Of a stretch of 64,000 nt of DNA, positions 5,351 to 49,037 are shown piece after piece; position 1 is the stretch's first letter; each line of letters starts with the position of its first letter. Position numbers and translations under genes: made by a program. Source of the stretch: Achromobacter xylosoxidans (GTDB lineage: Bacteria; Pseudomonadota; Gammaproteobacteria; Burkholderiales; Burkholderiaceae_B); assembly GCF_014490035.1 (NCBI RefSeq), contig NZ_CP061008.1:2170001-2234000 (forward strand), written 5' to 3'. The notes beneath the pieces are model-generated. The model was not told where the DNA came from and did not search any database. It saw only the letters and a program-made list of their open reading frames with translations.

Positions 5351-5375
5351 GGCGATAGGCCTGTAGAGGCGCGGA

Positions 5376-5876
5376 CTATTGGGCGAAGACATAGCTTTCC
5401 GGCACGTCGGCAAAGGTGACGACGCGGCCGCCGTGGGTATCGGCGAAAGCCTGGGCATGATCGCGCCGGGAGAAGGGGATGGCGTCTTCGGCGCCCATGC
5501 CGCCGATATAGCGGCCTTCGATGACGTAGTAAGCCTGCCGCGCGTCGATCCAGGCGGACGGGTCCGGCGCGCCGCCCGCGCCCGCGGTGGACATGTCGTT
5601 GACGTAGATGGCGCTGATGCCCTTGGGCTCTTCGGGCAGCAGGGTGTAGGCGAAGACCTGCTTGATCGAAGAGAACCAGACCGGCGCGGCCTGTCCCTTG
5701 ACGAATATCTGTCCCTTGGGGCCGTTGTGCTCGTTGAGCGCCATGCCGCAGTAATGGCCGACGGACTCCGTCGTCACGGCCTGCGGCGGGGGCGCGGCTT
5801 CTGGCGTGGCGCCGCTGCCGCAGGCCGCGGTCAGCAGCAAGGTGGAGACAGCCAGGAGGAGTCGCAGGCGTTTCAT
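5376..5876 (-). CDS. nosL: NosL, copper chaperone lipoprotein
   Basis: 166 residues from ATG 5876, which overlaps the nosY stop by 4 nt. The signal ends in a lipobox (LLLTAAC, Cys ~20), so it is a lipoprotein anchored at a periplasmic membrane face. The NosL core is visible: HYCGMALNEHNGPKGQIFVKG (CGM supplies copper ligands), then WFSSIKQVFAYTLLPEEPK, YVNDMS and a C-terminal GGRVVTFADVPE. Known role: Cu(I) delivery to the NosZ CuZ site, working with the NosDFY transporter. Sixth gene of nosRZDFYLX. Confidence 0.93.
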   Translation of the reverse strand: MKRLRLLLAVSTLLLTAACGSGATPEAAPPPQAVTTESVGHYCGMALNEHNGPKGQIFVKGQAAPVWFSSIKQVFAYTLLPEEPKGISAIYVNDMSTAGAGGAPDPSAWIDARQAYYVIEGRYIGGMGAEDAIPFSRRDHAQAFADTHGGRVVTFADVPESYVFAQ

Positions 5877-8894: not shown

Positions 8895-8899
8895 AAGCG

Positions 8900-10816: not shown

Positions 10817-10870
10817 GGATAACTCCTTGGTAGGAACGGCGCCCCGGGCGCCGCGGTGCGGAAAGCGGGA

Positions 10871-32489: not shown

Positions 32490-32656
32490 TTTCAATCTTG
32501 AAGCCAGTCCGATACGCTGCACGCGCGGGCCTGGGCCTGTCAAGAAAAGCCAGGCGCGATTACCCGGGCGGAAGCAGGGGCAAGGATGCGTGTCCATCCT
32601 GAATCGTGGATACTGTTTTTTCAATCTGGGATTTCCAGAGTTCACGGAGAGACGCA

Positions 32657-33283
32657 ATGCCCGAATCTCAAGGCGGCCTGGACAGGCTGCGCCGCTTCAT
32701 CGCCGCCGCGACCCGGCTGGCCACGCCCACGGGTCTGGCGCAGACGCCGGAGCTGCAGGCCGCATTCACAGACCTGGTGCGCCATGACGATTGGCTGCCC
32801 GAGGCCTGTACCGCGCCCCATCCTCAGTACTACCAGCAATATCTGCTGCACTGCGATCCGCTGGAACGCTTTTCGCTGGTGAGTTTCGTGTGGGGGCCGG
32901 GCCAGTTCACGCCGGTGCATGATCACGAGGTCTGGGGTTATGTGGGCATGCTGCGCGGGGCGGAGGTCAACCAGCGCTATGTTCGCGGCGAGGACGGCAG
33001 CGTTACTCCGGCGGGCGCCCCGACCACCTTGCAGCCGGGCGACGTGGAGCGCCTGTCGCCGGCCGAAGGCGACATCCACCGCGTGTCCAACGCCCACGCC
33101 GACCGCGTATCGATCAGCGTGCATCTCTACGGCGGCAACATCGGCGCCGTGTCGCGCCACGTATATGACCCGGCGACGGGGCAGGCCAAGCCTTTCGTGT
33201 CCGGCTATTCATCGCCCAGCCTGCCCAACCTGTGGGACCGCTCGGAAGCCGTGCGCGCGGCCATTGCCGGGGGCGCACGCTAG
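32657..33283 (+). CDS. Cysteine dioxygenase-type thiol dioxygenase (cupin)
   Basis: 208 residues from ATG 32657 (ACGGAGAG ribosome site). The cupin fold with an iron His triad: TPVHDHEVWGYVGMLRG supplies two His, and DIHRVSNAHADRVSISVHLYGG the third. Family: bacterial cysteine dioxygenase / 3-mercaptopropionate dioxygenase, which oxidise a thiol to a sulfinate with O2. The residue set separating Cys from 3-mercaptopropionate use cannot be judged here. Divergent from the sirtuin. Confidence 0.85.
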   Translation: MPESQGGLDRLRRFIAAATRLATPTGLAQTPELQAAFTDLVRHDDWLPEACTAPHPQYYQQYLLHCDPLERFSLVSFVWGPGQFTPVHDHEVWGYVGMLRGAEVNQRYVRGEDGSVTPAGAPTTLQPGDVERLSPAEGDIHRVSNAHADRVSISVHLYGGNIGAVSRHVYDPATGQAKPFVSGYSSPSLPNLWDRSEAVRAAIAGGAR

Positions 33284-33344: not shown

Positions 33345-34109
33345 ATGGACAAGACGCTGCTCAAAGGTCTGATGGTGCTGGAGGCGGTGACCGACGTGGA
33401 TAATCCGCCGCGCACCATCGATGCGCTCGCCGCCCGCGTCGGGCTGACCCGCAGCAACACGCACCGCACCTTGCAGACGCTGATCCATGCGGGCTACGTG
33501 ACCAAGGACGATGACGGCGGCGGCTATCGCGGCGCGGTACGGCTGTTCGAGCTGGCGGCGCGTCAGCTGGCCCAGCTGGACGTGCGCAAGCTGGCCGCGC
33601 CCTACATGCGCACGCTGGCCGACCAGACCGGCGAAACCGTGCACCTGTCGGTGCTCGACGGCTTCGACGTGGTCTACGTGGACAAGATCGACAGCCCCCA
33701 GCCCATACGCGCCTATTCCATGGTGGGCGGACGGGCGCCGGCCTATGCCGTCGCCACCGGCAAGGCCTTGCTCGCCTACCAGGCGGAAGGCTACGTCGAG
33801 CGCTATGCCGACAAGCTCGTGCGCCACACGTCCTCGACCATCGTGTCCATGCCGCTTTTGAAGGACGAACTGCGCAAGATCGCCCGCACCGGCTACGCGG
33901 TCAACCGGGGCGAATGGCGCGAAGGCGTGGGCGGGCTGGCCGTGACCTTGTTCAACAGTCTGGACCAGCCCGTGGCCGCGATAGGCATCTCCGGCCCGCT
34001 GGACCGCCTGAGCGCCGCTAGGATGAAGCAGCTGGCGCCGGACGTGGCTGCCTGTGCCCAGTCCATCTCGCAAGGGATGGGCTATCGCCGGGGCTATCTG
34101 GATCAGTAG
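33345..34109 (+). CDS. IclR-family transcriptional regulator
   Basis: 254 residues. The winged helix-turn-helix (~8-75: LKGLMVLEAVTDV, TIDALAARVGLTRSNTHRTLQTLIHAGYV) and effector domain (~80-250: LAAPYMRTLADQTGETVHLSVLDG, YSMVGGRAPAYAVATGKALLAY, VGGLAVTLFNSLDQPVAAIGISGP) are intact. Its 3' end overlaps the convergent FAD-protein gene by 92 bp. A palindrome just before its start, repeated before the Bug gene at 36623, points to autoregulation and control of the oxidoreductase/Bug operon, perhaps also the CaiB operon. Confidence 0.92.
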   Translation: MDKTLLKGLMVLEAVTDVDNPPRTIDALAARVGLTRSNTHRTLQTLIHAGYVTKDDDGGGYRGAVRLFELAARQLAQLDVRKLAAPYMRTLADQTGETVHLSVLDGFDVVYVDKIDSPQPIRAYSMVGGRAPAYAVATGKALLAYQAEGYVERYADKLVRHTSSTIVSMPLLKDELRKIARTGYAVNRGEWREGVGGLAVTLFNSLDQPVAAIGISGPLDRLSAARMKQLAPDVAACAQSISQGMGYRRGYLDQ

Positions 34110-35658
34110 CGGACCGCGCCAGCGCGGCGCCGATGCGCTGCGCCTGGCCGCGAGCCAGCCGCGCATTCACGTCCATGGACGTGGTCCAGAAATACGTGCC
34201 GCCCGCCAAGCTGCCCAGCACCGAGATATCCGGCTCGATCCCGCCTGCGGCGTTCTTGAGGCATCCCGTGGCATAGTCCAGCGCCAGGCCGCCATGGGGA
34301 TCGGGCTGCGCATGGCCCTCGCGCAATAGCGCGGACACCAGCGGATCTTGCGTGCTTGCGGTGTCCACCGAGAAGCTGGTGGCGTTGATCAGATAGCGGC
34401 TGGCGTGGGTGGACACTGCGCCCGCCGCGTCGCGCAAGCGCGTGTGGAACAGGCCGCTGGCGCTGTCGTGGCGGCTGTCCAGATAACCGCCGCTGACCTG
34501 CAACTGGCCATTCTGGAGCAGGGCTTGCAGCTTCAGCGCGTTGCGCATCGGAAAGGTGGCGCGCCGCGCCATCCATAGCGAACGCCATTGCGACTGGAAG
34601 CGGCCGCGTTCGGCGTCCGGCATGAGATGCCAGATCAGGTCCACGGCGGCATTGGTTGCGGCCGCCACCGCCTGCCAGGGGCGCGCGGCCTGTTCGGACC
34701 GCCGTATCTCGTCGTCCAGCGCGGCGCGGGCCTCGCCCTCCAGCCCGAACACGTCTGCGGCTGCCAGACTGCCGTCCAGCGCCTGCACTTCTTCCCGCAG
34801 CGCCGCGGCAATGGCCTCGAGCGAGAGGGTCCCGCCGTGCGCGGCGGCCAGGCGCGCAACGCCCTCCGGACTCAAGCGGCGCAGTGCGTCCGGAGCGCGA
34901 TTGTGCGGACTGCGCACCGACGGCAGCCGGCCATTGCGCGACGCGCACAGGATGGGGCCGCGATGCGCCGCTTGCCGCAAGGCTGCGATGGCGTCCACGG
35001 CGCTCAGGCTGGTGCCGATGATGCAGACCGGGGCGTCGGCGGCGATACCGCGCGTCAGCGCCTGGACCGGGTAAGGGCTGTTGAAGTAGCCGGGCGCATC
35101 GCGCAATTCCGGAAAGGCCTGCGAGGGCAGGTTGCCGTTGCACAGCACGGCGTAACGCGCCAGGCAGGGCTGACCCGATTCCGGTTCGACCCGCGCGCCG
35201 CAGCCAGGCAGCGGCGCCACGCGGCGGACACGGCTGCGCACGTGTGTGAGCGTGACGCACTGTGCGCGCGCGAGTTCGCAAGCTCGCGCATAGACTGCGC
35301 GCATGTAGGCGCCGAACAATGGCCGCGGCAGGAAGTCCGCCGGCGCTATCGAGTCCGCGCCTTGCGCGCGCAGCCAGGCGGGATCCTGGACGCGCAGCCA
35401 GTCCACGAAATCCATCCTGTGGTCGGCCCGCGCCGACATGTTGCCGGCGGGGATATTGAGCAGGTTGCTGGGCAGATCCTCCTGGTAGGCCTCGCCCGCT
35501 CCCGGCTCGGCCTGCGGCTCGAACAGCGCGATCGTCAGCGCCCGGCCGCCGCCCGGTTCCAGGGACAGCAGGAATTGATACAGGAAGCTGACGGCCACCG
35601 AGCCGCCGCCGACGATGGCCAGGTCCGCCGCGGGCGGTGTCGTGCCGGGCGCCGTCAT
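34018..35658 (-). CDS. FAD/NAD(P)-binding oxidoreductase, HI0933/NAD_binding_9-like
   Basis: 546 residues. An N-terminal Rossmann motif LAIVGGGSVAVSFLYQFL (~13-30), then FEPQAEPGAGEAYQEDLPSNLLNIPAGNMSARADHRMDF, typical of FAD-binding NAD_binding_9 proteins. A second dinucleotide fold has VCIIGTSLSAVDAIAALRQ. Late residues include TYFWTTSMDVNARLARGQAQRIG. Substrate unknown; related proteins include hydroxyacylglutathione/monooxygenase-like flavoenzymes. It begins at ATG 35658, overlapping the Bug gene stop by 4 nt, so the receptor and enzyme are translationally coupled. Confidence 0.8.
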   Translation of the reverse strand: MTAPGTTPPAADLAIVGGGSVAVSFLYQFLLSLEPGGGRALTIALFEPQAEPGAGEAYQEDLPSNLLNIPAGNMSARADHRMDFVDWLRVQDPAWLRAQGADSIAPADFLPRPLFGAYMRAVYARACELARAQCVTLTHVRSRVRRVAPLPGCGARVEPESGQPCLARYAVLCNGNLPSQAFPELRDAPGYFNSPYPVQALTRGIAADAPVCIIGTSLSAVDAIAALRQAAHRGPILCASRNGRLPSVRSPHNRAPDALRRLSPEGVARLAAAHGGTLSLEAIAAALREEVQALDGSLAAADVFGLEGEARAALDDEIRRSEQAARPWQAVAAATNAAVDLIWHLMPDAERGRFQSQWRSLWMARRATFPMRNALKLQALLQNGQLQVSGGYLDSRHDSASGLFHTRLRDAAGAVSTHASRYLINATSFSVDTASTQDPLVSALLREGHAQPDPHGGLALDYATGCLKNAAGGIEPDISVLGSLAGGTYFWTTSMDVNARLARGQAQRIGAALARSATDPDSPGDSPSLARWTGHRQPRPAPAASS

Positions 35659-36623
35659 TTGGCCGCCGACAAACGCACGACGTCGGCCCAGCGGGCGACT
35701 TCCTGTTTGAGCACGCGGCTGGTGTCGGCAGGAGTGGTGGCCACGGCGTCGGCGCCCAGCTTCTGCGCGGCTTGCTGCACGGAAGCCATGGCAGCCGCCT
35801 TCTGCATGCCGGCCGAGAGCTTGTCCACCACGGCGGGCGGCGTGCCCGCGGGAGCCAGCAGCGCGTAGGTGGTCGCGACCGAGTAGTCCTTTACGCCCTG
35901 CTCGGCGAGCGTGGGGAGGTCTGGCAGCGCCGTGGCGCGCGTGGCGGTGGTGACGCCGAGCAGACGGATCTTGCCGGTTGCGACCTGCGGCAGCAGCGCC
36001 GGCAGCGTTTCGATCACCATGTCGATCTGGCCGCCCAGCAGATCGGTGATGGCGGGCCCGCTGCCACGGTACGGCACATGCATGAGCCGCGTGCCGGTCA
36101 CGACCTGGAAGAGTTCGCCCGCCATGTGTTGGGACGTGCCGGGGCCGGCCGAGCCGAAGGTGATGGTGCCGGGCTTGCTCTTGGCCAGGGCGATCAGCTC
36201 CTGCACGTTCTTCGCGGGAATCTTGTTGCTGTTCACCGCCACGGCCATGGGCATGCTGGTCGCCATGGACACGCCGACGAAGGCGGTGCCGAAGTCGTAG
36301 CCGGGCTTGTCCGGCATGGCCGCGTGGATCGCGTGGCTACCCACGGCGCCCATCAGCAGGGTGTAGCCGTCGGCGGCCGACTTGGCCACATACTCAGCGC
36401 CGATTTCGCCGCCCGCACCCGCCTTGTTTTCCACCACCACGCTCTGCCCCAGGTAGTCGCCCAGGTGCTGCGCGTAGATGCGCGCGGCCGCGTCCGTCGC
36501 GCCGCCGGGCGGGAAGGGGACCACCATGCGCACGGGTTTCGCGGGCCAGTTGTCGGCCGCGGCCGCGCCGCCTGCCAAAGCCAGCACCATGCCTGTCAGG
36601 GCAATGCGCCACATTTTCTTCAT
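35655..36623 (-). CDS. Bug/TctC-type substrate-binding protein
   Basis: 322 residues from ATG 36623, with AAGGAG nearby; the frame extends 11 codons 5' without a site. Signal (~1-23, LALAGGAAAA), then the Bug start NWPAKPVRMVVPFPPGGATDAAAR, GSAGPGTSQHMAGELFQ and VPYRGSGPAITDLLGGQIDM. Periplasmic receptor of unknown ligand without transporter genes nearby. First gene of an operon with the FAD oxidoreductase, preceded by a palindrome matching that of the IclR gene. Confidence 0.92.
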   Translation of the reverse strand: MKKMWRIALTGMVLALAGGAAAADNWPAKPVRMVVPFPPGGATDAAARIYAQHLGDYLGQSVVVENKAGAGGEIGAEYVAKSAADGYTLLMGAVGSHAIHAAMPDKPGYDFGTAFVGVSMATSMPMAVAVNSNKIPAKNVQELIALAKSKPGTITFGSAGPGTSQHMAGELFQVVTGTRLMHVPYRGSGPAITDLLGGQIDMVIETLPALLPQVATGKIRLLGVTTATRATALPDLPTLAEQGVKDYSVATTYALLAPAGTPPAVVDKLSAGMQKAAAMASVQQAAQKLGADAVATTPADTSRVLKQEVARWADVVRLSAAK

Positions 36624-36684
36624 GGAAGTCTCCTTGGTGTCGGTGCGGGCCGTCATATGCCGCGTCGCGGCCCTTTATAAAAAT

Positions 36685-36907: not shown

Positions 36908-38077
36908 ATGACACCCAGTTCGGCGCTGGCCGGCATCACGGTGCTGGAGATTTGCAATGTTGCGGCGGGGCCTTTTTGCGGCATGCTGTTGGCGGACATG
37001 GGCGCCGACGTGATCAAGATCGAGAACCCCGAAGGCGGCGATACGCTGCGCAGCTGGCCGCCCATTTCCGACGGCTACAGCGAGAACTTCGCGTCCCTCA
37101 ACCGCAACAAGCGTTCGGTGACGTTGAACCTGAAGGACCCCGGCGACCTGGCTCTGGCGCGCGAACTCGCGCTGTCCGCCGACGTGCTGATCGAGAACAA
37201 CCGGCCGGGCGTGATGGACCGCCTGGGCCTGGGCTATGCGCAGCTGCGCGAGGCCAATCCCAGACTGGTCTATTGCTCGATCTCGGCCTACGGCCAGTCG
37301 GGGCCCCGTTCGCAGGAAGGCGGCTTCGACCTGACCATCCAGGCCATGAGCGGCATCATGAGCGTGACCGGCGAAGCGGGCGGCGAACCCGTGAAGTGCG
37401 GCGTGCCGGTGGCGGACTTTTCGGCCGGCCTGTACGGCGCCTTCGCCATTGCGTCGGCCTTGCGCGCGGCCCAGGCCAGCGGGCAGGGTACGCATATCGA
37501 CGTACCCATGCTGGGCGCCACCCTGGGCATCGCGGCTCTGCAGACTTCGGAGTTCTTCGGCAGCGGCAAGGATCCCGTCAAGCTGGGATCGGCCCATCCG
37601 CGCAATGCGCCCTACCAGGCGTTCCGCTGCAAGGGCGGCTACTTCGGCATGGCGGCGGGCAACCAGGCCTTGTGGAAGGGCGTATGCGCAACGGTAGGCC
37701 GCGAGGATCTGTTGGCCGACCCGCGCTTCACCGACACCAGCGCCCGCGCCCGCAACCAGACAGCGCTGCGCGAGATCCTGGAAGCGATCTTCGAAGCCGA
37801 GGACGCGCAGACCTGGCTGGCGCGTTTCCGTGCGGCCGGCGTGCCGTGCGCGCCCATCAACACCTATTCAGAGGTGCTGGCCGACCCGCAGGTTGAGCAC
37901 ATGGGCTGGGTGCAGCCCGTGGACCTGCCCAACGGCGTGCGCACGCGCACGTTCGGCCTGCCGGTGCGCTTCGACGGCCAGACCACGGCCTTGCGCCGCC
38001 GTCCGCCCGCCCTGGGCGAACACAACGATGAAGTGCTGGGCGCGCTGCGCGCCGCCAGGAAGGGGACGGCGGCATGA
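36908..38077 (+). CDS. CaiB/BaiF-family (class III) CoA-transferase
   Basis: 389 residues from ATG 36908 (GAGAGG upstream). Family blocks are VLEICNVAAGPFCGMLLADMGADVIKIE, SLNRNKRSVTLNLKDP, and the catalytic Asp in EGGFDLTIQAMSGIMSVTGE; later HPRNAPYQAFRCKGGYF and PVDLPNGVRTRTFGLPVRF. Reaction class: reversible CoA transfer between acyl-CoA and a free acid via an aspartyl-CoA intermediate, in the cytoplasm. Substrate unknown. First of five genes for CoA-ester metabolism; its stop overlaps the crotonase start by 4 nt. Confidence 0.92.
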   Translation: MTPSSALAGITVLEICNVAAGPFCGMLLADMGADVIKIENPEGGDTLRSWPPISDGYSENFASLNRNKRSVTLNLKDPGDLALARELALSADVLIENNRPGVMDRLGLGYAQLREANPRLVYCSISAYGQSGPRSQEGGFDLTIQAMSGIMSVTGEAGGEPVKCGVPVADFSAGLYGAFAIASALRAAQASGQGTHIDVPMLGATLGIAALQTSEFFGSGKDPVKLGSAHPRNAPYQAFRCKGGYFGMAAGNQALWKGVCATVGREDLLADPRFTDTSARARNQTALREILEAIFEAEDAQTWLARFRAAGVPCAPINTYSEVLADPQVEHMGWVQPVDLPNGVRTRTFGLPVRFDGQTTALRRRPPALGEHNDEVLGALRAARKGTAA

Positions 38078-38796
38078 GCGAGGTCCTGCACATCGACAAA
38101 CAGGGCGCGGCGCACGTGTTGACGCTGGCGCGGCCCGACAAGATGAATGCGCTGTCGGCGCCGCTGGTGGAGGAGCTGATTGCCGCATTGGATGCGGCCG
38201 AGGCTGGCGGCGCCCAGCTCATCGTCTTGAAGGGCGAGGGCAGGAACTTCAGCGCGGGCTTCGACTTCGGCGGCTGGCAGGAGCAGAGCGAAGGCGATCT
38301 GCTGCTGCGCTTCGTGCGCATCGAGATGCTGCTGCAGCGGCTGGCGGCCTCGCCGTGCCTCACGCTGGGGCTGGCGCATGGCCGTAACTTCGGCGCGGGC
38401 GTGGACTTGTTCGGCGCTTGCAAGTGGCGGGTCAGCGCGTCCGACGCCACGTTCCGCATGCCTGGGCTGAAGTTTGGCCTGGTGTTGGGGACGCGCCGTT
38501 ACGCAGCCTTGGTCGGCGCCGAGCGGGCGCGCGCGGTGCTGGAGCAGGCGGCCACATTCAGCGCAGAAGAAGCCTTGCGCGACGGCTTCGCGAGCCGCCT
38601 TGCCGACGTGCAGGACTGGCCGGCCGTCGAGCGCGAGGCGCTGGACGCCGCATCTGCTCTCAGCTGCGCGAGCCGCGTCCAGCTGTATGCGGCGCTGTCC
38701 TCGGAGGCGCCGGATATCGATCTTGCCCGCCTGGTGCGTTCTGCCGCACTGCCGGGCCTGAAGGACCGGGTAGCGGCCTATCTGCAGGCGCGTTGA
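38074..38796 (+). CDS. Crotonase-family (enoyl-CoA hydratase/isomerase-like) protein
   Basis: 240 residues, shorter than typical hydratases (~260). The oxyanion-hole segments IVLKGEGRNFSAGFDFGGWQ and HGRNFGAGVDLFGACKWRVSA are recognisable. However, the first catalytic Glu (in GGGCEL of classical hydratases) is Asp here (GAGVDLF), and the second (in PE--LG) appears to be Gly (MPGLKFGLVLG). So it may not be a plain hydratase; crotonases also catalyse isomerisation, thioester hydrolysis and C-C cleavage. Coupled by a 4-nt overlap to the CaiB gene, 31 bp before the CoA-transferase alpha gene. Confidence 0.85.
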   Translation: MSEVLHIDKQGAAHVLTLARPDKMNALSAPLVEELIAALDAAEAGGAQLIVLKGEGRNFSAGFDFGGWQEQSEGDLLLRFVRIEMLLQRLAASPCLTLGLAHGRNFGAGVDLFGACKWRVSASDATFRMPGLKFGLVLGTRRYAALVGAERARAVLEQAATFSAEEALRDGFASRLADVQDWPAVEREALDAASALSCASRVQLYAALSSEAPDIDLARLVRSAALPGLKDRVAAYLQAR

Positions 38797-38827
38797 TCGA
38801 AGAAGAACACGCAGGGAAGGAGACATC

Positions 38828-39661
38828 ATGGCATCGGGTTTCAATCAGAAGAACAAGCAGTGCTCGCTGGCGGAGCTGGCGGCGCTGGTGCCCAACGGCG
38901 CGTCGATCGCATTGGGCGGCAGCTTCCTGCACCGCGGACCGTTCGCCTTCGTGCGCGAACTGATCCGGCAGGGCCGGCGCGACCTGGAACTGGTCAAGCA
39001 GTCGCCGGGCTACGACGTGGACATCCTGTGCCGCGCGGGCGTGCTGCGCCGCGTGCGCGCGGGCATCGTCGCCATGGAAGGGAACTTCGGCCTGGCGCCC
39101 TGGTACCGCAAGGCGGTCGAGCGGCGCGAGATCGAGCTGGAAGAACACGCCTGCGCCAGCCTCACGGCCGGCCTGCGGGCGGCGGCGTTTGGCGTGCCGT
39201 TCCAGCCTTGCGGCGGCCTGCATGGTAGCGGCCTGCCGGAGCTGAACGGCTGGAAGTGCCTGGACGATCCGTATGGCAGCGGGCAGAAGACCTGGGTGGT
39301 GCCGGCGATCCGGCCGGACTTCGCCGTGATTCATGCTTCGGAGGTGGACGCGCTGGGCAATGTGCGCGTGCACGGCACGGCGCATTGGGACCGCATCATG
39401 TCGCGCGCCGCGGGCAGCGTGCTGGTGGTGGCCGAGAAGGTGGTCGACAGCGCGGTGTTCGAGGCCAATCCGGAATCCACGCTGGTGCCGTTCTTCATGG
39501 TGCAGGCCTATGCCGTCGCGCCGCAGGGCGCATGGCCGGGATCCTGCTGGCCGGACTACGCCATCGATTATCCGGCGGTGGAAGCGTACATGGACAAACA
39601 CAGCGATCTGCAGGCGCACCTGGCTGCGGCGCCCGAAGCGCGGGAGGTGCAGCATGGCTGA
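38828..39661 (+). CDS. CoA-transferase-like alpha subunit (GctA/IpdA type)
   Basis: 277 residues; AAGGAG precedes the ATG. Class I CoA-transferase fold: LAALVPNGASIALGGSFLHRGPFAFVRELIRQGRRDL, then SPGYDVDILCRAGVLRRVRAGIVAMEGNFGLAPWYRKAVE and IRPDFAVIHASEVDALGNVRVHG. The arrangement resembles glutaconate CoA-transferase A and, from memory, IpdA of steroid catabolism, where the pair acts as a ring-cleaving hydrolase rather than a transferase. Overlaps the beta gene by 8 nt, so the two form one complex. Confidence 0.85.
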   Translation: MASGFNQKNKQCSLAELAALVPNGASIALGGSFLHRGPFAFVRELIRQGRRDLELVKQSPGYDVDILCRAGVLRRVRAGIVAMEGNFGLAPWYRKAVERREIELEEHACASLTAGLRAAAFGVPFQPCGGLHGSGLPELNGWKCLDDPYGSGQKTWVVPAIRPDFAVIHASEVDALGNVRVHGTAHWDRIMSRAAGSVLVVAEKVVDSAVFEANPESTLVPFFMVQAYAVAPQGAWPGSCWPDYAIDYPAVEAYMDKHSDLQAHLAAAPEAREVQHG

Positions 39662-40388
39662 GCAATGGTCGGGCTTTTCGTACATCGTCACCAATCTGGC
39701 GCGCTTCATCCGGCCGGACGAGATCACTTTCAGCGGCGTGAATTCCACCCTGCCGATGCTGGCCTGCCTGCTGGCCAAGCGCGCCTACGATTGGGACTTC
39801 GTCTACATCAACGTCGCCGGCGGCGTGAACCCGCTGCCCTCGCATGTGCCGATCTCCAGTTCCGATCCGGTGCTGGCCGAGCGCACCGCGTCGATCTTCT
39901 CCAACGAAGACTTCTACGATCTGTGCACGCGCGGCCGCATGGACCTGACCTTCCTGGGCGCGGCGCAGATCGACGGCGAAGGCTGCGCCAACAATTCCTG
40001 CATCGGCGACTGGCACGAACCCAAGGTGCGCTTGCCGGGCGGCGGGGGCGGCGCGGTGATGCTGCCCACCGCCAGGCGCGCCTGCACCTGGCGCACCGAG
40101 CACTCGCGGCGCACCTTCGTGCCCAAGCTGGACTTCATGACGTCCTGGGGCGGATTCCATGGCGTGGTCACGCCGATCGCCGTGTTCGTCAAGCGCGACG
40201 GACGGCTGGCTTTGCAGTCATGGCACCCGGAATCCAGCCTGTCTGAAGTGCGCGAGCGCACGGGTTTCGAATTCGACGCCAGCGGCGCCGAGCCGTCCGC
40301 GCTGCCGACGGCGGCCGAGATGCGCGCCTTGCGCGAGCTGGATCCCGATGGGCAGTTTGAACGCGACGCTGCCGTCGCGCTGCGCTAG
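39654..40388 (+). CDS. CoA-transferase-like beta subunit (GctB/IpdB type)
   Basis: 244 residues from ATG 39654, with GGAGG 7 nt upstream; a longer frame inside the alpha gene is ignored. Blocks: FVYINVAGGVNPLPSHVPISSSDP, FYDLCTRGRMDLTFLGAAQIDGEGCANNSCIGDW, LPGGGGGAVMLPTARRACTW and LHPE-like SWHPESSLSEVRERTGFEFD. Class I beta subunits normally carry a catalytic Glu near the N-terminal strand; I see only VAGGV there. That favours a hydrolase/lyase like IpdAB over CoA transfer, as inference from unaligned reading. Confidence 0.83.
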   Translation: MAEQWSGFSYIVTNLARFIRPDEITFSGVNSTLPMLACLLAKRAYDWDFVYINVAGGVNPLPSHVPISSSDPVLAERTASIFSNEDFYDLCTRGRMDLTFLGAAQIDGEGCANNSCIGDWHEPKVRLPGGGGGAVMLPTARRACTWRTEHSRRTFVPKLDFMTSWGGFHGVVTPIAVFVKRDGRLALQSWHPESSLSEVRERTGFEFDASGAEPSALPTAAEMRALRELDPDGQFERDAAVALR

Positions 40389-40397
40389 GAGCTTGCC

Positions 40398-41894
40398 ATG
40401 ACGCTTGTCGACGCCACCTTGGTGGCTGCCTTCGCGCGCCTGTGGGCCCTGCCGCAATGGGCCGAACGGCCGGCTATCCTGACCGCGGACGGCATGCTGA
40501 CGTATGCCGGCCTGCGCCAGGAGGTCGGGCGCATCGCGGGCGGCCTGCGCGCCGCCGGGGTGCGGCGCGGCAGTCATGTGGCCATCGCGATGGAGCGGTC
40601 GCAGGCCCAGGTGCTGGCGATCCTGGGCGTGATGGCGGCGGGCGCCTGCCCATGTCCGTTGGAGCCGCGCCTGTCGGATGCCGAGACTGCCAGGCGCGTG
40701 GCGGCGGTGGGGCTGGGCTGGATACTGCACGATGCGGCGAACGCGGCGACGGCCCGTGCCAGCGGCTTGGCGCCGCAATGCCTGCTGGACGCCGCTGCCG
40801 TGGCCCAAGGCCCGCTGGACTGGACGGGCAGCGGCGAGGCCGCGCCCGGCGACGCGGGCCTGCTGCTGTTCACCTCCGGCAGCACCGGCAATCCCAAGGG
40901 CGTGCTGTTGAGCCACCGCGGGCTGGCGAACAACGCGCGCGGGGTGCTGGCGCACACCGGCTTGACGCCGGCAGACCGGCTCTTGCACGTGATGCCGCTG
41001 CATCACACCAATGCGCTCAACAACCAGATTTTCGCGCCGCTGCTGGCGGGGGCCTGCGTGGCGCTGGCGGGGCGCTTCCGGGCCGAAGACATGCCGGGCT
41101 TGCTGCGTGAGTTCCGGCCCAGCCTGATCACGGGCGTGCCGACCATGTACGCGCGCATGCTGGAACTGGAGTTCGATCCGGCCAGCCTGGCTGCGTTGCG
41201 CTTTGCGCGCTGCGGCTCGGCGCCGATCACCGAAGCGCTGCACCGGCGCATCGAAGCCTTCCTGGGCTGCCCGCTGGTGGTGTCCTATGGCCTGTCGGAA
41301 GCCACTTGCACCTCGACCATGAACCCGCCTGCCGCGCGCCGCGTGGGGTCTGTGGGTACCGTGCTGGCCGGCCAGAGCGTGACCTTGCGCCTGCCGGACG
41401 GCAGCGAGGCCGCGCCGGGCGGCGAAGGCGAGATCTGCATCGCGGGCGACAGCCTGATGCTGGGCTATGTGGGCGTGGACAGCGCCGACACCGGCGCGCC
41501 GCAGCTGTTGCGCACTGGGGACCTGGGGCGTTTCGACGAGCAGGGCTATCTGAGCATCACCGGCCGCATCAAGGACGTGATCATCCGCGGCGGCGAGAAC
41601 ATCTCGCCAGCGCTGATCGAGGGGGTGGTGACGGGCCTGCCGGGCGTGGCCGCCTGCTGCGTGGTGGGCGCGCCCGACGAGGACCTGGGCGAAGTGCCGG
41701 TGATCTTCGTGCAGCGCGCGGGCGCGGCCGCGCCGGATGCGTCCGGCATACAGGCGGAGGTGCTGGCGCGCCTGGGCCGCATCTACGTGCCGCGCGAGGT
41801 GTTGTGGATCGAGCGCCTGCCCGAGAACGCGGTGGGCAAGGTCGACCGCAAGGCGCTGGCGCGGCAGCTAGCGCCCGCCAGCCTGCGTTCATGA
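40398..41894 (+). CDS. Acyl-CoA synthetase (AMP-forming)
   Basis: 498 residues of the ANL superfamily. P-loop FTSGSTGNPKGVLLSHRG (~156-173), YGLSEATCTSTMNPP, the hinge LRTGDLGRFDEQGYLSITGRIKDVIIRGGENISP and the adenylation lysine in LPENAVGKVDRKAL are all intact, so it should be active. Reaction: acid + ATP + CoA to acyl-CoA + AMP + PPi. It probably activates the substrate of this operon, chemically unknown. Last gene of the CaiB operon, 9 bp after the beta subunit. Confidence 0.92.
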   Translation: MTLVDATLVAAFARLWALPQWAERPAILTADGMLTYAGLRQEVGRIAGGLRAAGVRRGSHVAIAMERSQAQVLAILGVMAAGACPCPLEPRLSDAETARRVAAVGLGWILHDAANAATARASGLAPQCLLDAAAVAQGPLDWTGSGEAAPGDAGLLLFTSGSTGNPKGVLLSHRGLANNARGVLAHTGLTPADRLLHVMPLHHTNALNNQIFAPLLAGACVALAGRFRAEDMPGLLREFRPSLITGVPTMYARMLELEFDPASLAALRFARCGSAPITEALHRRIEAFLGCPLVVSYGLSEATCTSTMNPPAARRVGSVGTVLAGQSVTLRLPDGSEAAPGGEGEICIAGDSLMLGYVGVDSADTGAPQLLRTGDLGRFDEQGYLSITGRIKDVIIRGGENISPALIEGVVTGLPGVAACCVVGAPDEDLGEVPVIFVQRAGAAAPDASGIQAEVLARLGRIYVPREVLWIERLPENAVGKVDRKALARQLAPASLRS

Positions 41895-41933: not shown

Positions 41934-42905
41934 CTATTCGACCTTGCCGATCCGGTTGACCGCGACCTCCAGCGAGGCCGAGTCCTTCTTCCAGTACTCG
42001 TCGAAGGCTGGCGCGTCCAGGTATTGCACCGGACTGCCGGTGCCGGCGATGCGGGCCTGGACCTCGGGGTTGGTGGCGACGTCCTTGACTGCCTGGCGCA
42101 GCTTCTCCACGACGGCCGGCGGCGTGCCGGCCAGGGCGAATACGCCCGACCACTGCACGAAGCTGATGTCATAGCCTTGCGATTTGAAGGACGGCACGTC
42201 CGGCAGGCTGTCGAGCTTGCCGTCGCCCCAATGCGCCAGCGCCTTGACGCGCCCCGCCTGGATCAGCTGCATGACGCTGGACGGCCCGGTGGCAAGGGCA
42301 TCGACCTGGCCGCCCACCAGCGCCTGCACCGCGGGGCCGGCGCCGGTGAAGGGCACGTGCATCATCTTGATGCCAGCCGCGTTCTGCAGCATTTCCATCG
42401 GCACGTGCATGGTGCCGTAGATGCCGGAAGAGCCGTAGCTGAACTTGCCGGACTGCTTCTTCGCCGCGTCGACGAATTCCTGCAGCGTCTTGTACGGCGC
42501 GTCGGCGCGCACCACCAGCACGGTCGGATCGGCGGTGATGCGCGCGATCGGCACGAACTGGTCCAGCTGATAGGCCGGCTTGCGTTCCAGCAGGCGGTCG
42601 GCTGCGGGCAGGATGGAAATCGACGACAGGCTCATCAGCAGCGTATAGCCGTCGGGCTTGGCGCGGCCGGCCTGGCCGATGCCGATGGCGCCGCCCGCGC
42701 CGCCCTTGTTTTCGATGACGACGGCCTGGCCCAGCTTGTCGCCCATGGCCTGGGCCAGCGGCCGCGCGATCGTGTCGGCGACGCCGCCAGGCGGGAAGGG
42801 CACCACCATGGTCACGGGGCGTTCAGGGTAGCCGGCGGCCAGCGCATTCGCGGCTCCCAGCCATAGCAAGGCAGCCGCGGCCGCCCGGTAGCAACGCAGA
42901 TTCAT
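41934..42905 (-). CDS. Bug/TctC-type substrate-binding protein
   Basis: 323 residues; AAGGAG precedes ATG 42905. Signal (~1-23, ANALAAG), then YPERPVTMVVPFPPGGVADTIARP, VIENKGGAGGAIG and GSSGIYGTMHVPMEMLQ, VPFTGAGPAVQALVGGQVDA. Periplasmic receptor, ligand unknown. It follows the fumarylacetoacetase-family gene by 59 bp on the same strand, making a receptor/enzyme operon under the divergent FadR-type regulator, and converges on the CaiB operon. Confidence 0.92.
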   Translation of the reverse strand: MNLRCYRAAAAALLWLGAANALAAGYPERPVTMVVPFPPGGVADTIARPLAQAMGDKLGQAVVIENKGGAGGAIGIGQAGRAKPDGYTLLMSLSSISILPAADRLLERKPAYQLDQFVPIARITADPTVLVVRADAPYKTLQEFVDAAKKQSGKFSYGSSGIYGTMHVPMEMLQNAAGIKMMHVPFTGAGPAVQALVGGQVDALATGPSSVMQLIQAGRVKALAHWGDGKLDSLPDVPSFKSQGYDISFVQWSGVFALAGTPPAVVEKLRQAVKDVATNPEVQARIAGTGSPVQYLDAPAFDEYWKKDSASLEVAVNRIGKVE

Positions 42906-42964
42906 GTCTCACTCCTTGTGCTTCTTATTGCCGAGCCGCCCCGTGTTCATTCCGGGGCTTGTCC

Positions 42965-43834
42965 TCAGACGAAGCGGTTTTCTATGTGGCCGATGCCGTC
43001 GATCTCCACCCGCACCACGTCGCCGTGCTTGAGGAATTGCGGCGGGTTCAGGCCCTGGCCGACGCCGGCCGGCGTGCCGGTGGCGATGACGTCGCCCGGA
43101 TACAGCGTGATGCCGCGCGAGCAGGTTTCGATCAGCGTGGGGATGTCGAAGATCAGGTCTTCGGTGTTGCCGTCCTGGCGCAGCTCGCCGTTGACCCAGC
43201 AGCGCACGCGCGTCTTCTGGCCGTCCAGCTCGTCGGCCGTCACCAGCCAGGGGCCCATGGGGCAGAAGGTGTCGAAGGACTTGCCCAGGTCCCACTGCTG
43301 GTGGCGCATCTGCACGTCGCGCGCGGTAACGTCGTTGACCACCGTGTAGCCGATCACGTGGCTCATGGCCTCGGCGCGGGAAATGTTGCGGCCGCCCTTG
43401 CCGATCACCACCGCCAGCTCGGCTTCGTAGTCGATCTTGTCGGAGACGCCCACGGGCAGATGCACGTCGGCCCAGGGGCCGACCACGGTCTGCGGCACCT
43501 TGGTGAACACGATGGGCCAGGATTCGGGATTGGCGTCGTTGTCCTTGAAGACGGAGTCGCGCAGTTCCTTGGCATGGGCGTGGTAGTTGCGGCCCACGCA
43601 GAACAGGTTGCGCCGCTGCGCTGGCAGGGGCGCCTCATGCTCGACCTGGTCCCAGCGGTAGGACGAGCCGACCTTGGCCGGCAGGGCGCGGCCCTCGGCC
43701 AGCCATTCCACGGCGGTCAGCGCGCCTGCGGCCGCGAGTTCGCGCGGGAAGTCCAGGGCGGTCACGCTGCCACCGTCGTCGGACACCACGCCGATGCGGC
43801 GCTCGCCCTGGATCCGGAATACTGCAATCTTCAT
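42965..43834 (-). CDS. Fumarylacetoacetate hydrolase-family protein
   Basis: 289 residues from ATG 43834 (GGGAGC upstream; a longer frame 5' runs into the operator region). C-terminal FAH domain: [54 protein letters not shown] with acidic metal ligands, [18 protein letters not shown] and [30 protein letters not shown]. Members hydrolyse C-C bonds of 1,3-dicarbonyls, decarboxylate or isomerise (for example acylpyruvases and HpcE-like enzymes). Substrate unknown. Pairs with the Bug receptor downstream. Confidence 0.9.
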   Translation of the reverse strand: [289 protein letters not shown]

Positions 43835-43871
43835 GCTTGCTCCCTGAGCGGTCCGGCCGCTCTTGTTTAAT

Positions 43872-43989
43872 ACCAAAAAATACCAATTGGGCGAATATCA
43901 AGGCCCAATTTCGGGAGAGGATATACCAAATAAACCAACTTTCCTAACGGAATCTCCAGGTTTTTCTTGGTTTATTGGTCTGTTTTGGT
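43872..43989. promoter_or_regulatory. Cluster of ACCAA/TTGGT half-sites, FadR-type operator
   Basis: Half-sites lie at 43872, 43882, 43925 and 43934 (ACCAA) and 43967, 43975 and 43985 (TTGGT). ACCAAATAAACCAA (43925-43938) and TTGGTTTATTGGT (43967-43979) form an inverted pair, and CCAATTGG (43883-43890) is a perfect palindrome. TTGGT/ACCAA arms are typical of FCD-type GntR regulators such as PdhR and LldR. AT-rich, between the divergent FAH and regulator genes. Confidence 0.65.
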
Positions 43990-44022
43990 ATCATCTGGCC
44001 GCTAGCTATTCTGGGACGGTCC

Positions 44023-44691
44023 ATGGACAAAGCTTCCGCCTTGCGCGCGGTCATCATCGAGAATCTGCAATCCGGCGCCTGGCCTGCTGGCCATCGCCTG
44101 CCCACGGAACGCGCCCTGAGCGAACAATTCGGCATCAGCCGTTCAACGGTGCGCCGCACCCTGGCCGACTTGAAGAACGAAGGCCTGATTTCGCAGCGCG
44201 TGGGCAGCGGCACCTACGCCAATCCATCCTCGGCGCTGGCGCAAACGGAAGGGCTGCTACGCACCGAAGTGCTGTCCACCAGCCCGGCCGAACTGATGGC
44301 GGCGCGGCTGGTGCTGGAGCCGGCCATCGCGGCCCTGGTGGTGCAGCATGGCAGCCCTGCCGATTTCGCCGCGATGCAGGACGCCTGTGCGCGCGCAGAG
44401 GCCGCCGACAGCTTCGAAGCGTTCGAGATCTGGGACGCCAAATTGCACGAATTGATGGCGACGGCCACGCACAATCTCTTCATCGAAAAAGTGTTCGCGC
44501 TGATGACGGCGGCGCGCTCGCAAGCGACCTGGGGCGCCTTGAAGCGCAGGAGCCTGACGCCCGAGCGGCGCCAGGCCTATCAGGTGGAGCATCGCGAGAT
44601 CGTTGATGCGCTGCATGACCGGGACGCGGAACGGGCCATGGAGGCCGTGCGGCGGCATCTGCTGCACGTGAGGGACAACCTGCTGGGCTAG
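44023..44691 (+). CDS. GntR-family regulator, FadR/FCD type
   Basis: 222 residues from ATG 44023. The winged helix-turn-helix (~5-70: AVIIENLQSGAWPAGHRLPTERALSEQFGISRSTVRRTLADLKNEGLISQ) is followed by an all-helical FCD domain (~95-220) with metal/ligand residues in FEIWDAKLHELMATATHNLF and RRQAYQVEHREIVDALHDRDAERA. Cytoplasmic repressor type, controlled by a carboxylate or CoA ligand. It is divergent from the FAH/Bug operon with TTGGT half-sites between, so that operon is the probable target. Confidence 0.9.
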   Translation: MDKASALRAVIIENLQSGAWPAGHRLPTERALSEQFGISRSTVRRTLADLKNEGLISQRVGSGTYANPSSALAQTEGLLRTEVLSTSPAELMAARLVLEPAIAALVVQHGSPADFAAMQDACARAEAADSFEAFEIWDAKLHELMATATHNLFIEKVFALMTAARSQATWGALKRRSLTPERRQAYQVEHREIVDALHDRDAERAMEAVRRHLLHVRDNLLG

Positions 44692-45662: not shown

Positions 45663-46715
45663 TCAACCTCCGGTTTGTGCCCGCGCAGTTTCCCACACAT
45701 GCGTCCAGCCCGGGGCCAGATGCGCGGCGCGCTCGGCGGCCAGGATCAGGCTGTCTTCGCGGGCGATGCCGCGGCCGGCGATGTCGAAGGCGGTGCCGTG
45801 GTCCACGGACACGCGCACGACCGGCAGGCCCACGGTGATGTTGACGCCGTCGTCGCCGTAGACCGCCTTGAAGGGCGCGTGGCCCTGGTCGTGGTAACAG
45901 GCGATCACGAACTTCCACTTGCCGCGCACGGCTTGCGGGAACAGCGCGTCGGCCGGAATCGGGCCCGCGGCCAGGATGCCGGCGGCATTGGCTTCGGCCA
46001 CCGCGGGCGCCAGGATGTCGGCGTCTTCGGTGCCGAAGATGCCGTTTTCGCCGGCATGCGGATTCAGGCCCGACACCGCCACCGGCTGGTCGCCGCGGCC
46101 CAGCGCCTTGGCGAAGGAACCGGCCAGGCGCAGCACCGCGCGCATGCGCGCCGGGGTCAGGTCTTCGATGGCCTGGCGCAGCGACACGTGGGTGGTGGCG
46201 TGGAAAATGTAGAGGTCGCCGGCCGACAGCACCAGCGAGAAGGTCTTGACGCCGAACTCGTGCGCCAGCAGTTCGGTATGCCCGGGCCACTTGTGGCCGG
46301 CCGCGTGCATGGCGGCCTTGTTCAGCGGGGCGGTGACGATGCCGTCAACCTCGCCGGCGCGCGCCAGGGCGCAGGCCGTGGTGACAAAGCGCACCGAGCC
46401 GTCGCCCGCGTCCGCGCTGATCTCGCCCAGCTTCACGTGGGCCAGCGACGGGCCTGCCTGCAGCACTTCGATGGTGCCGGGCGTGTTGGCGCAGTCGGCG
46501 GCGCGGTCCAGCTTGCGCACGATGGCGGGGTCGCCGCCCAGGCTGCGCACGGCGTTGGCCATCACGTCCACGTCGCCGACCACCAGCAGGCGGGCCTTCT
46601 GGCGCAGTTCGTCATGGCCCATCAGCATCTTGGCCGTGATTTCCGGCCCGATGCCCGCCACGTCGCCCAGGGTTACGGCCAGCAGGGGCAGCTTGCCCGG
46701 TTGGGGTTGTGTCAT
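45663..46715 (-). CDS. pdxA2: PdxA2-type 4-phospho-D-threonate dehydrogenase
   Basis: 350 residues of the PdxA family: LAVTLGDVAGIGPEITAKML (~11-30), GIVTAPLNKAAMHAAGHKWPGHTELLAHEFGV, and metal-binding ACYHDQGHAPFKAVYGDDGVNITVGLP with SVDHGTAFDIAGRG. True PdxA acts on 4-hydroxythreonine phosphate in vitamin B6 synthesis. PdxA2, described next to DUF1537 kinases, oxidatively decarboxylates 4-phospho-D-threonate to dihydroxyacetone phosphate. The operon with a DUF1537 kinase and permease supports PdxA2. Overlaps the kinase gene by 4 nt. Confidence 0.88.
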   Translation of the reverse strand: MTQPQPGKLPLLAVTLGDVAGIGPEITAKMLMGHDELRQKARLLVVGDVDVMANAVRSLGGDPAIVRKLDRAADCANTPGTIEVLQAGPSLAHVKLGEISADAGDGSVRFVTTACALARAGEVDGIVTAPLNKAAMHAAGHKWPGHTELLAHEFGVKTFSLVLSAGDLYIFHATTHVSLRQAIEDLTPARMRAVLRLAGSFAKALGRGDQPVAVSGLNPHAGENGIFGTEDADILAPAVAEANAAGILAAGPIPADALFPQAVRGKWKFVIACYHDQGHAPFKAVYGDDGVNITVGLPVVRVSVDHGTAFDIAGRGIAREDSLILAAERAAHLAPGWTHVWETARAQTGG

Positions 46716-47929
46716 CGCTTGAATCTCCTGTCGCGGATCGCGCGCACCGCGCGAACCAGTACATCTTCGGTGCCAAAGCCGCCGGCCTTGGTCACCACGG
46801 GCAGGCCGGCGGCCGTGCCTCCGGTCAGCGTGCCCAGGGGCACGCCGCCCATCACTTCATCCACCAGCGCAATGCCGCGGGCGCCCAGCGCCACCAGCAC
46901 GCTGCGCGCGCCGTCACCGCCCGTGGCGACCACGCCGGCGGCGTTGGCGCTGGCGATCAATTGCGCGGCCAGGCCGCCCAGGCGTTCCGCGACGGTCTCG
47001 GAATCCAGGCCGTCCAGCTGGCCTTCGGGCGCCAGCAGCAGCACCGTGCCGGCTTGCGCCGGCGATTGGCCATGCGCTTGCAGCAGCGGCTGGCTCCAGG
47101 CCTGCCATGCGGCGTCGTCGGCCAATTGAGCCAGCGAGGGTGTCCAGGTGTCGGCGCCCGAGGCTTGCAGGGCGGCGGCTTGCGCGCGCGCCGCGCTGTG
47201 CTGCGAGGTCACCACCACCACGACCGGCGCGGTCTGGTCGGCGCCGGCCCAAACCCGAGCCAGCGGCACGGCCAGGCCGCCCGCGCCCACGGGCAGGGCG
47301 TGCACACCCAACAAGCCGATGGCGCGCGCCAGGCGCTCCAGGTCGGCTTCGGTAGCCGCGTCGACCACCACGGTGCTGCCGGCCGCGCGGATGCGGGCCG
47401 CCAGCGCTTGCGGCGTGTCGTCTTGCTGCGCCGCCACATGGGCGCAACCCAGCAGGGTGGGGATATGGCTTTCGGTCACGGGCGTGACCGGATCTGTGGC
47501 CGCCGAGGTCTCGGTGACCGGCTTGCCGTTGACGTAGAGCACGCCTTGTTCGACGGTGCGGCCGGTGGCCGGGAAGGCCGGACAGATCACCGCAATGGTG
47601 TCCGGACCCCAAGCCTCGCGCGCCGCGTCGATCTCGGCCTTGAAAGCGCCGCGCAAGGTGGAGTCCACCTTCTTGTACAGGCGCGTGACGCCGGCCGCAC
47701 GCAGGCGGCGCACGTTCTGCCAGACGGCCTCGGCCGCGTCGGCGGCCGACAGGGGACGGCTGTTGGTCGTGACCGCCAGCACTTCCACGCCGGCGGCGCC
47801 GGAACCCGACAGCGCCTCGTCGGCGCCGCCGATGGACAGATGGGTGTTCCAGCCGGCGCGCACGAACTGCACCGCCGTGTCGCCCGAACCGGTCAGGTCA
47901 TCGGCGACGATGGCGATGGCGGGATTCAA
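46712..47929 (-). CDS. dtnK: Four-carbon acid sugar kinase (DUF1537), D-threonate kinase type
   Basis: 405 residues. The N-terminal domain has IAIVADDLTGSGDTAVQFVRAGW (~5-27), RLYKKVDSTLRGAFKAEID and ICPAFPATGRTVEQGVLYVNG. The C-terminal nucleotide-binding domain has VATGGDGARSVLVALGARG and a Gly-rich TKAGGFGTEDVLV. The family phosphorylates D-threonate, D-erythronate or L-threonate; pairing with a PdxA homologue and no dehydrogenase or aldolase indicates D-threonate kinase. Overlaps both neighbours by 4 nt. Confidence 0.87.
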   Translation of the reverse strand: MNPAIAIVADDLTGSGDTAVQFVRAGWNTHLSIGGADEALSGSGAAGVEVLAVTTNSRPLSAADAAEAVWQNVRRLRAAGVTRLYKKVDSTLRGAFKAEIDAAREAWGPDTIAVICPAFPATGRTVEQGVLYVNGKPVTETSAATDPVTPVTESHIPTLLGCAHVAAQQDDTPQALAARIRAAGSTVVVDAATEADLERLARAIGLLGVHALPVGAGGLAVPLARVWAGADQTAPVVVVVTSQHSAARAQAAALQASGADTWTPSLAQLADDAAWQAWSQPLLQAHGQSPAQAGTVLLLAPEGQLDGLDSETVAERLGGLAAQLIASANAAGVVATGGDGARSVLVALGARGIALVDEVMGGVPLGTLTGGTAAGLPVVTKAGGFGTEDVLVRAVRAIRDRRFKR

Positions 47930-48951
47930 AGCGCCTCTCCACGCGCTTCACGCAGGGCGGGGGCGACCGTGGGGTCGGCGTCCTCGGACTTGAGCTCGCC
48001 CGCGCGCTTGAGGAAATACGAGGCCAGCATGGGCGCCAGGATCGAGCTGATCAGCACGCAGGCGGCGACCTGGGCGGTGGCGGTCGACACGTATTGCTGG
48101 AAGTTGGGATCGGCGGCCGCTACCACTGCAGGGGTGGCAATGGCGTTGCCGGCGGTGGTGCCAGCGGCGAAGCCCAGGCCGCTCTTGCCGCCGCGGCGCA
48201 GGATGTAGCGATAGCCCAGATAGACCAGGCCGCCGGTGATGGGGCTGATGATCAGGCCCAGGATCAGGCCGCTGACGCCGCCGGAAACCACGGCGCCCAG
48301 GTTGATGCCGGTGCCCAGGGCGAAGGCGAAGAACGGGATGACGATGTTGGGCACGGGCTTGAGCACGTCGCGCCACTTGGGGTCCAGGTTGCCGACCACC
48401 ACGCCGAGCAGGAACGGCACCAGCGCCGCCACCAGGGCGATCATGGGGATGTCGGCCAGGCCCGAGGCGCCCAGGAACAGCAGGCTGAAGAAGGGGCCGT
48501 CATTGACCGCGCTGGCCACATAGGCGCCGCGGTCGCGGGCATCGCCGTACTGGCCGGTATAGGCCAGCCACAGGCCGCCGTTGCTGTTGTCGAAGGCGGC
48601 CAGCAGCGCCAGGATGGACACGCCCAGCACGCCGTCCAGGCCGACGTAGCTGCCCAGAATGATGATGAGGGTGGCGGGCACCAGGGTCTTCATCAACAGG
48701 ATGGTGCCGGCGGTGGCCAGGATCGGGCCACCGGTGCGCGCATTGACCTGCGTGCCGGTGGCGAAGATCAGCAGCGCGATCAGGGGCAGGGCGCTGTTCT
48801 TGAACAGCGCCGTGGTGAAGCCGCCGATCGCCAACGCGTCGGGAGCGAAGGTGCCGATCAAGGAACCCAGGATCAGCGGCACCAGCATCAATCCTCCGGG
48901 GATTTTCTGCATCGTGCCAAAAAAGGGCGAGCGGGAAGTTTCGGTCGACAC
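47926..48951 (-). CDS. 2-keto-3-deoxygluconate permease (KdgT) family transporter
   Basis: 341 residues from GTG 48951, chosen because GGAG lies 9 nt upstream; an in-frame TTG at 48966 is the alternative. About ten hydrophobic segments. Family blocks: IPGGLMLVPLILGSLIGTFAP, LLAAFDNSNGGLWLAYTGQYGD, AYVASAVNDGPFFSLLFLG and AAGTTAGNAIATPAVVAAADP. KdgT carries 2-keto-3-deoxygluconate by proton symport; here, in front of a threonate kinase and dehydrogenase, it more likely imports D-threonate or a related acid (inference). First gene of the operon. Confidence 0.85.
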   Translation of the reverse strand: MSTETSRSPFFGTMQKIPGGLMLVPLILGSLIGTFAPDALAIGGFTTALFKNSALPLIALLIFATGTQVNARTGGPILATAGTILLMKTLVPATLIIILGSYVGLDGVLGVSILALLAAFDNSNGGLWLAYTGQYGDARDRGAYVASAVNDGPFFSLLFLGASGLADIPMIALVAALVPFLLGVVVGNLDPKWRDVLKPVPNIVIPFFAFALGTGINLGAVVSGGVSGLILGLIISPITGGLVYLGYRYILRRGGKSGLGFAAGTTAGNAIATPAVVAAADPNFQQYVSTATAQVAACVLISSILAPMLASYFLKRAGELKSEDADPTVAPALREARGEAL

Positions 48952-49037
48952 TATCGGAGTCTCCAAGACGGTTTTTATGGGTTGCAGACGTTCGAGCGCG
49001 CGTCTGTCACACGGTTGATCAGGGATGAAAAACCGTA

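Follow-up and report, generated by a model that had tools for sequence, protein, structure and literature searches.

We describe here a conserved five-gene operon of Achromobacter xylosoxidans, present in other soil bacteria as well, located at positions 36908-41894 of the window (the whole 64,000-nucleotide stretch that was analyzed, contig NZ_CP061008.1, positions 2,170,001 to 2,234,000, from a 6.76 Mb genome in one contig). Its products are, in order, a CoA-transferase of the CaiB type, a crotonase, an alpha and a beta subunit that share the class I CoA-transferase fold, and a ligase of the AMP-forming kind; the beta subunit has lost the catalytic glutamate of such transferases and the alpha subunit carries an invariant cysteine at the position of Glu105 in the steroid ring-cleaving hydrolase IpdA. 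We think it close to an even proposition, though slightly short of one, that such pairs are a further catalytic class of this fold, Glu-less and using the invariant alpha Cys, in an undescribed but complete pathway for a citrate-like acid. The fold and the kinds of enzyme are already known; what appears to be undescribed is how the residues are arranged and which genes make up the set, and no description of this cluster or of a cysteine class was found in the literature searched (subscription journals fell mostly outside its scope).

The original prediction had pointed to a “VAGGVNP” segment where the catalytic Glu of beta was expected, and the alignment agrees: the column holds valine (Val54) in 99/99 rows. 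(For alpha and beta, 108 rows were found and 98 kept in addition to the window, the rest being dropped for length, coverage, identity or stops; both this set and the 96-row crotonase set below contain the window, and in both some genomes are counted twice, as two locus entries for one contig.) The aligned canonical betas (L126, L127, L129 and L130) have Glu in this column, as do two beta paralogs from the same genome as the window (L190 and L192, with the motif SENG), the remaining paralogous betas being unaligned there. Both subunits have the CoA_trans fold of class I (family 1) CoA-transferases (PF01144 in each, and the predicted fold of alpha), and the catalytic beta Glu of that family is absent. 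An ordinary CoA-transferase acting through a Glu anhydride is ruled out by Val54 in every row and, since the beta Glu is lost, the annotation as glutaconate or 3-oxoacid CoA-transferase in many genomes is unlikely to be right (the source annotations label alpha “glutaconate CoA-transferase subunit A”).

In alpha, the column of IpdA Glu105 holds Cys109, again in 99/99 rows; this column is certain in sequence since the wild-type and E105A (6coj) chains of IpdA differ exactly there. Cys109 opens a helix (109-120) in the alpha model, which has a predicted local distance difference test (pLDDT) score of 90.3, and five alpha paralogs from the same genome have Gln in this column. The states of the two subunits were compared across 41 loci with both genes (the window among them, as L144, and one gene entered under both L127 and L158). 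Of these, 20 combine a beta Glu with another residue in alpha, His in 19 and Asn in one; three have alpha Glu with beta Ala, Gly or Pro, and 18 have alpha Cys, with beta Val, Ile or Ala in six and a gap at the Glu column in the other 12, which form a second subfamily. An aligned beta Glu is never paired with alpha Cys or alpha Glu (0/41), and we infer that the catalytic side chain moved from the beta to the alpha subunit. The second alpha-Cys group is weaker evidence than a first look suggests, its betas being gapped at the Glu column and some having Glu a few residues on (L164 and L170; Lys in L131). The window family clusters with L037-L039 in the tree (97/89) and the second alpha-Cys group stands apart (100/100); with weak support at the deep joins, and with AibA, GctA and IpdA entering as long rows, the alpha cysteine may have arisen once or twice. 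As to the surroundings of the second subfamily, in L131 (region 4667-10674) its pair comes immediately after the gene of a thiol dioxygenase and is followed by another CaiB gene, with act-like and acd-like genes near, and its pair in L165 adjoins a bisC-family S/N-oxide reductase gene (10584-12896; 1010.2 bits, just under the cut-off of 1017.55), a type of neighbor also seen by eye in L164, L166 and L174.

Ranked by sequence, the solved relatives nearest to the pair are AibA/AibB, the 3-methylglutaconyl-CoA decarboxylase of Myxococcus xanthus (5mzw), followed by the glutaconate CoA-transferase GctA/GctB (1poi) and then by IpdA/IpdB (6co6, 6coj, 6con). AibAB shares the fold, the two subunits and the lack of a beta Glu, and is the best match of both subunits, but AibA has Gly at the position of Cys109. 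In the AibAB pathway a crotonase step (LiuC) precedes the decarboxylase, a likeness to the operon; we know of no ligase or CaiB gene beside AibAB. Direct orthology is ruled out by the replacement of beta Cys56 and Glu72. Their absence lowers the case for membership and leaves the possible reaction unaffected, since a Cys56Val mutant of AibB stays active (PMC7756340); the natural valine at position 54 is therefore no argument against a decarboxylase. Calculations on AibAB speak for a direct loss of CO2 that involves an enolate (PMC7756340). GctAB has the same fold and subunit make-up, with a catalytic Glu54 in GctB (PMC5380842) where the window beta has Val54.

That the crotonase lacks the usual Glu pair (“GAGVDLF” and “MPGLKFG”) had been read from this one sequence, and it holds across the family: Asp111 and Gly131 stand in place of the two Glu of enoyl-CoA hydratases in 96/96 rows (FGAGV[D]LFGAC and MP[G]LKFG), while a paralog in the same genome, L179, has Glu at both (GGGC[E]LAMMC and GQP[E]). 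The closest solved relative, 3isa, has both motifs of the operon crotonase and is named only “putative.” The CaiB protein is nearest to 4ed9 (281.7 bits) and to the class III succinate--hydroxymethylglutarate CoA-transferase 9br6 (278.7 bits), but falls below every listed NCBIfam equivalog cut-off, with 331.5 bits (cut-off 750) against the succinate--glutarate CoA-transferase model NF052585. It combines the class III fold (CoA_transf_3, PF02515) with an aspartate, Asp170, in 95/95 rows, which we take to be the usual catalytic Asp place.

Within the family of the host, 34/151 genomes contain beta (at least 45% identity), and a class-level survey of 369 genomes (E 1e-20 or better) matched only the host's own genome and four remote genomes. 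A scan of named genomes gave 99 loci, of which 80 were kept, including Methylobacterium, Luteibacter, Pseudoxanthomonas and a Vicinamibacterales metagenome-assembled genome; the nearest were Achromobacter loci with beta 98% identical. The five-gene order, which the original prediction proposed to look for elsewhere, recurs with all genes on one strand in 70/80 named loci, so that the operon arrangement is more than chance. Six of the ten deviating loci (L071, L072, L073, L094, L095 and L102) have no ligase at 44% identity or above in the examined stretch (a ligase counted as missing may thus be more distant or lie beyond it), two are without CaiB and crotonase genes (L101, on a short contig, and L121), and two have an altered order (L089 and L097). 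In L089 and L018 the ligase matches at its two ends alone (residues 6-140 and 430-488 in L018), which looks like loss of the middle part.

The transporters that accompany the operon are of tricarboxylate type. That of the Luteibacter locus L125 scores above the cut-off of NF011656, the model for the tricarballylate symporter TcuC (657.3 bits; cut-off 445), and has relatives in 18/80 named loci, TctC/Bug-type binding proteins being present in 52/80. A minimal module in Methylobacterium, Luteibacter and Pseudoxanthomonas adds to the five enzymes only an IclR regulator and a symporter of the TcuC type; by eye, no other set of catabolic enzymes was recognized around it, so the five should suffice to reach central metabolism. 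Taken together, the tricarboxylate-type transporters, a CaiB enzyme close to C5-dicarboxylate CoA-transferases and the minimal module make a citrate-like acid the best fit. Tentatively, and at rather less than even confidence, we favor a catabolic route for a citrate-like acid, tricarboxylic or branched dicarboxylic, in which alpha/beta is a decarboxylase or C-C lyase. The route that we infer, in its substrate and in every reaction, would begin with uptake by the TctC/Bug system (in other genera, by the TcuC-type proton symporter); the CaiB enzyme would form the CoA ester from another CoA ester, with the AMP ligase priming the cycle; alpha/beta, no longer a transferase, would remove CO2 or cleave a C-C bond beside the thioester via an enolate, alpha Cys109 probably serving as acid or nucleophile; and the crotonase would use Asp111 to hydrate, or hydrate and split, the product. 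Trans-aconitate, degraded via mesaconyl-CoA and citramalyl-CoA, fits this chemistry on paper and, there being no citramalyl-CoA lyase over cut-off in the host's own genome, was kept only as an example of the substrate type; “aconityl-CoA” was not found in the literature searched. The remote pair L037 adjoins a gene for a CitE/RipC-type lyase (231.7 bits, cut-off 375).

Several observations weigh against a citrate-like acid and a decarboxylase or lyase. The TcuC model was tried on L125 alone among the transporters and is a subfamily model that does not fix the substrate, and the host's own genome gave no match over cut-off (three below) for RipC or citramalyl-CoA lyase. The catalytic residues of AibAB are not kept (AibB Cys56 is Val54 and Glu72 is Ser70, with Asp71 adjoining), and the comparison of alpha folds ended in a tie between AibA and IpdA. 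The beta model was of low quality (pLDDT 51.7) and was not used, so that the joint alpha/beta active site is unseen. Finally, a plain tricarboxylate leaves unexplained why a thiol dioxygenase recurs and why a few loci have sulfatase or SorT genes.

The original prediction proposed that the pair resembles IpdAB. Such an enzyme would act once an EchA20-like crotonase had done so, hydrolyzing a C-C bond in the CoA ester of a beta-diketone, cyclic or open, and Cys109 would stand in for Glu105; we regard this as unlikely. The two pairs do share the fold, the loss of the beta Glu, an alpha position occupied in both by a probable catalytic side chain, and a crotonase partner, and IpdAB, with Gly at the beta Glu place, performs no CoA transfer (PMC5380842). 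Of the proposed likeness, the missing transferase Glu stood, but the expected IpdA glutamate did not: Glu105 itself is gone in all 99 alphas, which also rules out a direct IpdAB ortholog. Further, by sequence the pair is nearer to AibAB and GctAB (the match to IpdAB is weaker chiefly in beta, at 26.9 bits), no ring-degradation genes were recognized by eye around the minimal module, and the transporters are of the tricarboxylate type.

The recurrent dioxygenase suggests another alternative, which we likewise consider improbable: a sulfur-containing acid would be degraded, the dioxygenase making a sulfinate and the CoA-ester enzymes splitting a C-S bond or freeing sulfite or CO2. A gene of the 3-mercaptopropionate dioxygenase type lies within 15 kb of beta in 15/34 genomes from seven genera (positions compared by hand) and in 40/80 named loci (14 from genera other than Achromobacter), where both orientations occur and the distance varies; as a yardstick for shared gene order, pdxA (20 loci) and a Sir2 gene (21 loci) are found in Achromobacter only. 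Anywhere in the genome, the dioxygenase is present in 30/34 genomes with beta vs. 48/117 others (no kinship correction). The known desulfinase type for 3-sulfinopropionyl-CoA, to which the product of L131 5896-7095 presumably belongs, is scarce (7/151 genomes, and one of the 15 with a dioxygenase near beta); in addition, SorT in L107 exceeds its cut-off, and the related alpha-Cys pair of L131 directly follows such a dioxygenase gene. Yet the dioxygenase is absent from the examined stretches of half of the named loci, including all those of Methylobacterium, Luteibacter and Pseudoxanthomonas, and from the vicinity of the second alpha-Cys subfamily in L164-L173 (0/10 loci), SorT occurs in only 2/80 loci, and the pair was not found among the known organosulfur clusters in the accessible part of PMC6370202.

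3-Sulfinopropionate was not adopted as a sure substrate: the dioxygenase is linked, but the minimal module does without it and the adjacency in L131 is not general. The locus resembles the 3-mercaptopropionate/3-sulfinopropionate pathway of Variovorax TBEA6 (mdo, act, acdA) in that genes for a thiol dioxygenase of its type and for a class III CoA-transferase are near, but the window gene set is without an acdA-type desulfinase, which the host carries elsewhere in its genome. In L174 and L175, dioxygenase, act-like and acd-like genes lie some kilobases from the second-subfamily pair. The FAD protein encoded beside the operon is linked to it more tightly than the dioxygenase: its co-occurrence with beta (Table 1; chance 4e-17, no kinship correction) is accompanied by proximity (within 7 kb in 20/21 genomes), a first, loose pass having scored nine candidates per genome for this gene and 12 for the desulfinase. 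Its nearest model, PRK09897, is far under cut-off, and a structure search found no solved relative. The dioxygenase and the FAD protein may be feeder enzymes, or the substrate may carry sulfur. A sulfatase gene was also seen near the operon in L075, L110, L111 and L036, with a formylglycine-generating-enzyme-type gene beside it in the first three.

Least probable of the readings, and in our view quite doubtful, is that the pair has remained a CoA-transferase, or acts as a thioester hydrolase, forming an acyl-enzyme on Cys109 in place of the beta-Glu anhydride; Cys109 is invariant and opens its helix in the model, a helix start being a common place for a nucleophile, but the operon already has two enzymes that form CoA esters. 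Moreover, the two characterized Glu-less pairs that we know of, IpdAB and AibAB, are both non-transferases (PMC5380842; PMC7756340).

The layout of the locus is given in Table 1. All five reading frames were verified, and the view of them as coupled genes of the CoA-activation type was borne out in coordinates, strand and tight packing: the CaiB and crotonase genes overlap by 4 bases and alpha and beta by 8, and gaps of 31 and 9 bases separate crotonase from alpha and beta from ligase (the CaiB frame has an extra in-frame ATG at 36860). Pfam assigns CoA_transf_3, ECH_1, CoA_trans (twice) and AMP-binding with AMP-binding_C to the five proteins, and no NCBIfam model was over its cut-off among those listed (the best 25 of 64 for the crotonase, the best 25 of 110 for the ligase). 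On the 5′ side, the genes for the TctC/Bug protein and the FAD protein are divergent to the operon, with the IclR regulator and thiol dioxygenase genes beyond them. On the 3′ side (41934-44691) are genes for a Bug protein, an FAH-family enzyme and a GntR regulator; this block is beside the operon only in Achromobacter (9/80 loci) and is thus probably a separate unit. Farther on (45663-48966), a PdxA gene (over the TIGR00557 cut-off) is followed by genes that, by eye, resemble those of a four-carbon-acid kinase and a KdgT-type permease.

Table 1. Genes and key codons of the operon and its 5′ neighbors (window positions).
Feature	Position	Strand	Evidence
3-mercaptopropionate-dioxygenase-type thiol dioxygenase, linked	32606..33283	+	PF05995; 4qma 235.2 bits, 3uss/4tlf 234.5 bits
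IclR-type regulator	33345..34109	+	PF01614, PF09339; relatives in 70/80 named loci
FAD-NAD(P)-binding protein co-occurring with operon	34018..35658	-	PF13454; 21/151 family genomes, all 21 with beta
TctC/Bug-type binding protein, divergent to operon	35655..36656	-	PF03401; relatives in 52/80 named loci
CaiB-type (class III) CoA-transferase	36908..38077	+	PF02515, 429 bits; Asp170
Crotonase-superfamily enzyme, Asp111 and Gly131 at the two usual Glu positions	38074..38796	+	PF00378; 3isa 260.8 bits
Crotonase Asp111 codon (first Glu position of canonical hydratases)	38404..38406	+	96/96 rows; paralog L179 has Glu
Crotonase Gly131 codon (second Glu position)	38464..38466	+	96/96 rows; paralog L179 has Glu
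Alpha subunit, class I CoA-transferase fold	38828..39661	+	PF01144
Alpha Cys109 codon, IpdA Glu105 column, first residue of modeled helix 109-120	39152..39154	+	99/99 rows
Beta subunit, class I CoA-transferase fold, without transferase Glu	39654..40388	+	PF01144; AibB 104.4 bits
Beta Val54 codon, column of transferase Glu and AibB Cys56	39813..39815	+	99/99 rows; canonical pairs have Glu
AMP-forming acyl-CoA ligase	40398..41894	+	PF00501, PF13193; no listed NCBIfam model over cut-off (best 25 of 110)

Should the cysteine prove catalytic, the key residue of the class I CoA-transferase fold would have switched subunits more than once, and one could tell from a single alignment column which of the annotated transferases are in fact other enzymes. 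The module appears to be complete and occurs across alpha-, beta- and gammaproteobacteria, and the operon would name a carbon source that is not assigned to any gene set known to us.

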